Shown here in pieces: positions 799 to 1,030 of a stretch of DNA of 21,322 nucleotides. The translations under genes and the position numbers were made by a program. Each line of letters opens with the position of its first letter. Position 1 is the stretch's first letter. The notes beneath the pieces are model-generated. The model ran no database searches. It worked only from the letters and a program-made list of their open reading frames with translations, and was not told the DNA's origin. The DNA comes from a virus, in the IMG/VR virus record IMGVR_UViG_3300025138_000452, positions 1 through 21,322 of that record; one strand, given 5' to 3'.

Positions 799-814
799 CT
801 ACTATGCATAGCGG

Positions 815-845
815 GATTGCAATCTTGTATGTAGTCCTGTAAGAT
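815..845 (+). promoter_or_regulatory. Candidate sigma70-like promoter with palindrome
   Basis: The gap 799-889 holds TTGCAA (817-822) and TAAGAT (840-845) separated by 17 nt, each matching four of six consensus bases. The -35 element sits inside a perfect 10-bp palindrome GATTGCAATC (815-824), as an operator might. A second -10 option is the extended TGGTATAAC at 852-860. Which, if either, is used cannot be told from sequence. Confidence 0.35.
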
Positions 846-849
846 AAAA

Positions 850-892
850 CATGGTATAACTATCCTTGGTACTATAGAGGAGTTATACCATG
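850..892 (+). promoter_or_regulatory. 12-bp inverted repeat covering SD and start codon
   Basis: CATGGTATAACT (850-861) and AGTTATACCATG (881-892) are perfect reverse complements around a 19-nt loop. The right arm ends exactly on the ATG (890-892) of the 46-aa gene, and the Shine-Dalgarno AGAGGAG (876-882) lies at the loop/stem boundary; CCT (864-866) can also pair with AGG (878-880). In RNA this hairpin would bury both SD and start codon. In DNA the same sequence could be an operator, since the left arm contains an extended -10-like TGGTATAAC. Confidence 0.7.
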
Positions 893-1030
893 TTTAAACG
901 TTTTTTAATTAAATTTCAGAAGAACCAGCAACTACGAGCAGACTACTGGATTCTTATGAACATGTCAGACAAAGACCTAATAGATATAGGAATTACCCGT
1001 GGTGAAATCAAAGGCAAAGTCTACCGTTAA
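890..1030 (+). CDS. DUF1127-like small protein
   Basis: This 46-residue ORF has ATG 890, a good SD (AGAGGAG at 876-882) and TAA 1028-1030. The N-terminal half is basic and aromatic (MFKRFLIKFQKNQQLRADYW). The C-terminal half, LMNMSDKDLIDIGITRGEI, closely follows the DUF1127 pattern of a conserved LxxMsDreLxDIGisRgeI motif near the end of a 45-70 residue protein. DUF1127 proteins are abundant in proteobacteria, especially alphaproteobacteria, and at least one characterised member (CcaF1 of Rhodobacter) is an RNA-binding protein. The gene sits behind its own promoter-like gap and a hairpin spanning its start, and overlaps the next gene by 32 nt. A role in binding host or phage RNA is inference. 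The family call is confident from the motif. Confidence 0.85.
   Translation: MFKRFLIKFQKNQQLRADYWILMNMSDKDLIDIGITRGEIKGKVYR

Follow-up and report, generated by a model that had tools for sequence, protein, structure and literature searches.

In phage T4, genes e, soc, 49 and I-TevI, together with T4 segB and Aeh1 mobE, carry hairpins that sequester the RBS and have a late promoter embedded in them (PMC3014915, PMC2988022). For e, soc, 49 and I-TevI, the Shine-Dalgarno sequence (SD) and AUG lie in helices in long early transcripts, and the late promoters drop the 5′ strand of the helix (PMC3014915, PMC2988022). In gene e, the structure reduces synthesis about 100-fold (PMC3014915). A different kind of leader control is described for a gene of the DUF1127 family, duf1127-1 of S. 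meliloti, which is held down by its own leader through transcription attenuation via a translated uORF (PMC12218461). As to the protein family, CcaF1, a DUF1127 protein, is reported to bind RNA (cited in PMC12501420), and DUF1127 proteins are also reported to bind the PhoR kinase.

Here we analysed the leader of a DUF1127 gene in a viral DNA record of 21,322 nucleotides, the whole of which is called the window. The locus resembles the T4 cases in that SD and/or AUG are buried in long, upstream-initiated transcripts. A putative promoter that overlaps the 5′ strand of the helix would, by sequence prediction in 39 of 43 leaders and with 15 of 88 distinct leaders as exceptions, give transcripts without that strand. 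It differs in its phages, which are HMO-2011-type podophages unrelated to T4, in its promoter, which is an extended host-type −10 (TGNTATAAC/T) and not the T4 late promoter TATAAATA, in its gene, a small DUF1127 regulator where T4 has lysozyme or an endonuclease, and in the position of the promoter, which varies between upstream, arm and loop. The gp55-dependent TATAAATA promoter is absent, and the −10 is TATAAC or TATAAT with a TG extension. By analogy, the element would work like the T4 cases while standing outside the T4 late-promoter set; a hairpin-gate switch has been described for T4 and its relatives, and so far neither for HMO-2011-type phages nor for DUF1127. The S. meliloti gene is likewise a DUF1127 gene held down by its leader, but the leader studied here sequesters the SD directly and has neither uORF nor terminator (PMC12218461). 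We consider the element to be, probably, a translation gate that acts in cis and contains its own promoter, of the T4 gene e and I-TevI type.

The phage and its DUF1127 gene

The gene downstream of the leader is:

890..1030, + strand: DUF1127 (PF06568) gene, 46 aa (Pfam match)

The preliminary description of the window, made from its letters, had called the product DUF1127-like, and the match to PF06568 (26.0 bits, Pfam gathering cut-off 23.3) agrees with this. Full-length identity of the terminase to the roseophages CRP-1 and CRP-345 and to HMO-2011 is 78.6–81%, and the gene order (small genes, DUF1127, endolysin, terminases, portal, coat) is that of HMO-2011-type phages; the window is an HMO-2011-type marine podophage. 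HMO-2011-type phages have been called dominant in the oceans (PMC9038755). The main HMO-2011-type paper mentions neither DUF1127 nor promoters, and a limited literature search found no paper with transcript mapping for these phages. Because the DUF1127 gene sits inside a long co-directional array, with seven annotated genes before it in CRP-1, transcription probably reads through it from upstream. Neither a terminator-like site nor an intrinsic terminator was found near the leader. In phage CRP-13, the terminase small subunit gene is immediately preceded by an unannotated DUF1127 gene (L006, 5546–5707). Contig FZLS01000083.1 of Rhodobacteraceae bacterium Water_Bin34 (L175 / L187), which is probably a phage or prophage contig, holds a DUF1127 gene with a phage-type leader and its −10 in the loop.

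A hairpin covers the SD and start codon

The elements of the hairpin are:

847..861, + strand: left arm of the perfect 15-bp inverted repeat (folding, repeat search)
863..867, + strand: anti-SD segment UCCUU, partner GAGGA at 877–881 (folding, covariation)
876..882, + strand: Shine-Dalgarno AGAGGAG, buried in read-through RNA (folding, opening cost)
881..895, + strand: right arm, with SD end, spacer, start codon and codon 2 (folding, repeat search)

A perfect 12-bp repeat ending precisely on the ATG had been noticed here. Its arms CATGGTATAACT (850–861) and AGTTATACCATG (881–892) are indeed exact reverse complements; the repeat was given too short, since the perfect match is 15 nt, AAACATGGTATAACT (847–861) and AGTTATACCATGTTT (881–895) with 19 nt between the arms, and the right arm runs past the ATG into codon 2. 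Among perfect inverted repeats of at least 12 nt with a gap of at most 40 nt, it stands alone in the whole window; Markov shuffles gave 0.07 such repeats of at least 12 nt per window, and no 15-nt perfect repeat occurred in 30 shuffles. A second inverted repeat (GTAGAAGACTTTATAC / GTATAAAGTTTGCTAC, 88%) is found at 1236–1293, inside a 101-aa gene.

As RNA, 847–860 pairs with 882–895, an added anti-SD helix joins UCCUU 863–867 to GAGGA 877–881, and the SD at 876–882 is itself paired. The MFE of the hairpin is −22.4 kcal/mol (z −4.3), and none of 200 shuffles was as stable. Moreover, opening the stretch from SD to AUG costs 18.3 kcal/mol in this leader, which is more than at any of 163 other gene starts (maximum 17.4, median 4.3), taken from the window and from related phages.

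RNA thermometers (ROSE, fourU) are hairpins that bury SD and AUG, as this one does, but the stem here is much more stable, and Rfam 15 gave no match above gathering score in the window and four relatives. That the leader is such a thermometer, or a uORF-dependent attenuator as for a Sinorhizobium DUF1127 gene, has only a very slim chance of being right. The buried SD and AUG, the regulated S. meliloti leader (PMC12218461) and the sequence ATG-GTA-TAA in the left arm would all suit it, but for a thermometer a perfect 15-bp stem is very stable, the surroundings show no terminator-like site, and in S. meliloti control works through transcription that ends prematurely, downstream of a translated uORF. 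A uORF in the left arm was rejected as a candidate because ATG-GTA-TAA results from the (A)TGNTATAA promoter element, that is, from the extended −10, and has no SD. Of the hairpin types proposed earlier, the translational hairpin that buries an RBS is kept, and nothing specific points to a thermometer or a ligand attenuator.

The pairing is conserved among relatives

From two scans that covered IMG/VR and isolated roseophages, 150 leaders were usable, and 43 divergent representatives were defined as being <90% identical to one another. Related leaders were aligned to look for compensatory substitutions, a check that had been proposed: the SD is paired with an upstream anti-SD segment in 43 of 43 divergent leaders, and in an alignment of 54 leaders changes on both sides occur in six of seven consensus pairs. 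In this alignment, 90.9% of cells in the seven-pair core are paired, against 44–67% when the arms are slid. Double-change cells number 76 against 30.7 ± 9.4 after shuffling, and the mean energy of own-arm duplexes is −15.2 kcal/mol, compared with −11.5 (sd 0.42) when permuted, a value reached in 0 of 20,000 permutations, although these shuffles and permutations overstate the significance because the leader sequences are related. A stricter comparison, in which arms were swapped between nearest neighbours, came out about even, with 27 stronger and 23 weaker. The window's own clade shows almost no variation in the arms, and the covariation comes mostly from other clades; pairing is weak in a few members (L004, L175). 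The register of the arms also differs, being GGTATAACT/AGTTATACC in the window's clade and ACTATCTCC/GGAGATAGT in other clades, with the same signals buried. G-U pairs are many, and pairs change via G-U in 7–12 sequences at three positions. Because strong covariation and G-U changes are found across the 43 divergent leaders, the RNA pairing is under selection. In several leaders (L036, L047, L052, L065, L123 and L130), the loop contains a second hairpin (GGTAAG..CTTACC), which is variable between phages.

Host DUF1127 genes served for comparison. A scan for close host relatives gave three matches, and the controls were therefore drawn from a family search, which supplied 25 leaders, all from a single bacterial family with a Rhodobacteraceae bin at its centre. 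These leaders lack sequestration (median z −0.1 against 2.8 in phages), and in this comparison the SD-sequestering element is specific to these phage DUF1127 genes. The RNA hairpin that had been suggested to hide SD and AUG is well supported by the compensatory and G-U changes and by its absence from host DUF1127 genes.

A putative promoter is embedded in the left arm

The second half of the element, a conserved extended −10 inside the left arm, was missed in the preliminary description:

852..860, + strand: extended −10 TGG-TATAAC (TGGTATAAC) within the left arm (conservation)
867..870, + strand: predicted start zone of the embedded promoter, in the loop (+12 from −10 start)

The motif TGNTATAAY is present in 38 of the 43 divergent leaders, where 0.66 is expected, and upstream of four of the 163 gene starts, three of the four being DUF1127 genes. 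A TATAAC or TATAAT box whose predicted start falls at or 3′ of the anti-SD, with loss of the arm, occurs in 39/43 leaders, and 24/43 carry only a −10 whose predicted start drops the anti-SD arm. The median cost of opening SD to AUG is 11.9 kcal/mol for read-through RNA and 3.8 for RNA from the nearest −10. When the window's RNA is folded from 869, there is no structure around SD and AUG, and from 867 only weak structure. The extended −10 of the window has no good −35. Promoter-like sites TTGACA-N16-TATAACTA precede the coat gene in CRP-1 and HMO-2011 (L001 13281, L003 14300), and because the same TATAACTA box stands there with TTGACA 16 bp upstream, TGG-TATAAC is a plausible host-type −10; from its conservation and placement we infer promoter activity and the start site. 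A generic consensus promoter scan showed no enrichment over shuffles; it missed the box at 852–860 because it required a final T, and conservation was used instead. A T7-like promoter (ACTATAG 871–877, resembling T7 −6..+1) was rejected, as the motif is at chance frequency in the window and missing from relatives, and no RNA polymerase gene is annotated in CRP-1.

In CRP-235, CRP-738 and their IMG/VR relatives, the −10 (TATAAT) occupies the loop, and the anti-SD arm precedes this promoter; an example is AACTCTCCTTAGT..TGTTATAAT..ACTAAGGAGAGTT. Since the arm is upstream of the promoter, the hairpin would be possible only in read-through RNA, and we regard this layout as the strongest single argument for a gate. 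A transcription start inside the loop had been named as an observation that would speak against the hairpin; the comparison suggests that such a start is the mechanism itself, with read-through RNA locked and local RNA open.

The DNA reading of the repeat, as an operator overlapping an extended −10, fared unevenly: the arm does overlap a conserved extended −10, whereas the operator is weakened by the G-U pairs and by the shift of arm register between clades. The RNA hairpin and the extended −10 are compatible, not alternatives. A dyad operator for a DNA-binding repressor, the RNA hairpin being incidental, is in our estimate improbable. The repeat of the window is perfect and overlaps the promoter, as such an operator would, and a separate palindrome stands beside the −10 in CRP-212 and CRP-3; however, G-U changes (7–12 sequences, three positions) keep RNA pairing and not DNA symmetry, arm register and sequence vary between clades while SD pairing is kept, and the arms of CRP-235 flank the promoter at a different distance. 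The palindrome itself (CACCTAATTAGGTG; GCACTTAACTAGGTGC), which adjoins the −10 in CRP-212, CRP-3 and relatives (L088 735–765; just upstream in L091/L102/L103), looks like a repressor operator.

The gate with a built-in promoter would then operate as follows. Read-through mRNA from upstream genes would include the left arm, the hairpin would fold, and the SD and AUG of the DUF1127 gene would be closed. From the extended −10, placed in the left arm here and in the loop in a sister clade, RNA would start at the boundary of anti-SD and loop, and this local RNA, without the left arm, would have SD and AUG open. DUF1127 protein would thus be made mainly from the local promoter and not from the long upstream transcript. 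The pairing behind the closed state is seen in folding and covariation, and the −10 box behind the open state in its conservation; the translational effect, its timing and its purpose we infer.

The upstream promoter and the exceptions

Two further elements precede the hairpin:

806..822, + strand: conserved element GCATAGCGGGATTGCAA, containing TTGCAA at 817–822 (alignment of leaders)
840..845, + strand: weak P1-type −10 TAAGAT, 17 bp after TTGCAA (direct reading)

The element at 806–822 (consensus GCATA[AG]CGGG[GT][TA]TGCA) is in all leaders of alignment A2, directly after the stop of the upstream gene and 60–75 nt before the DUF1127 start, and occurs once in each of the phage sequences read. 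It is possibly an activator site, a −35 region or a small hairpin (GCATA/TATGC in some). TTGCAA is the −35 of a promoter, P1, in other clades; the P1 −10 is strong there (TATAAC) and broken in the near relatives L008/L010. RNA from the window's P1-type −10 is predicted to retain most of the left arm. In 15 of 88 distinct leaders, called class I (e.g. L023, L024, L038), a clear promoter is found only upstream of the hairpin, P1 being TTGCAA-N17-TATAAC and the box at the inner position being weakened to TAAAAC. Because P1 lies upstream of the hairpin, local RNA of class I should carry it. P1 and the inner box are both present in 15/43 representatives. For class I phages, the sequences suggest one of two things, an inner box that is still active or a hairpin that acts on local RNA as well, and mainly because of these exceptions our confidence in the gate model is moderate.

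These exceptions bear on the proposal that every DUF1127 mRNA, whether from P1 or from read-through, has the hairpin at its 5′ end as a conditional translational operator, which would be opened by a trans factor such as the DUF1127 protein (autoregulation), a host RNA-binding protein or an sRNA. With P1 15–16 bp upstream, class I mRNA begins with the hairpin, and some DUF1127 proteins bind RNA (CcaF1, cited in PMC12501420). We nevertheless think it unlikely: a −10 that would drop the arm is present in 39/43 leaders, the CRP-235/CRP-738 group has the arm upstream of the promoter, the loops showed no conserved motif, other DUF1127 proteins work via protein contact with PhoR, and host DUF1127 leaders have no hairpin. 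Autoregulation of DUF1127 via its leader is possible, with nothing specific to it among the present observations.

Tandem TATAAC boxes 14–15 bp apart were seen in L001 (2890/2905), L002 (3770/3785), L006 (5475/5489), L036, L047 and L092, and resemble a promoter with a sigma-dependent pause element downstream of it. Taken as the main function, this would make the leader a promoter and pause element, as at the lambda late promoter, for the downstream lysis/packaging operon, with the hairpin secondary. Many leaders do have two such boxes, and the DUF1127 gene is upstream of endolysin and terminase genes, but SD pairing and covariation are left unexplained, many leaders have a single box, and no Q-like gene was identified here in a search that was not systematic; we hold this to be rather improbable.

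Implications for phage gene control

One stretch of DNA would serve as both −10 box and anti-SD arm. Tentatively, this may be an undescribed RNA/promoter element, a sensor of transcript origin for a phage DUF1127 protein whose target may be host RNA turnover or PhoR phosphate signalling and which may also feed back on its own leader. If this is true, ribosomes can translate only mRNA that was started at the local promoter. By comparison with T4, the same trick, in which read-through is silenced and a promoter hidden in the hairpin frees the gene, was very likely reached independently in HMO-2011-type phages, and their natural range of promoter placements (upstream, arm and loop) would let the logic of the gate be tested. 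DUF1127 is a small regulator whose roles, in binding RNA or PhoR, are disputed; here it would be a phage gene under tight expression gating, and such gating suggests that its mistimed expression is costly.
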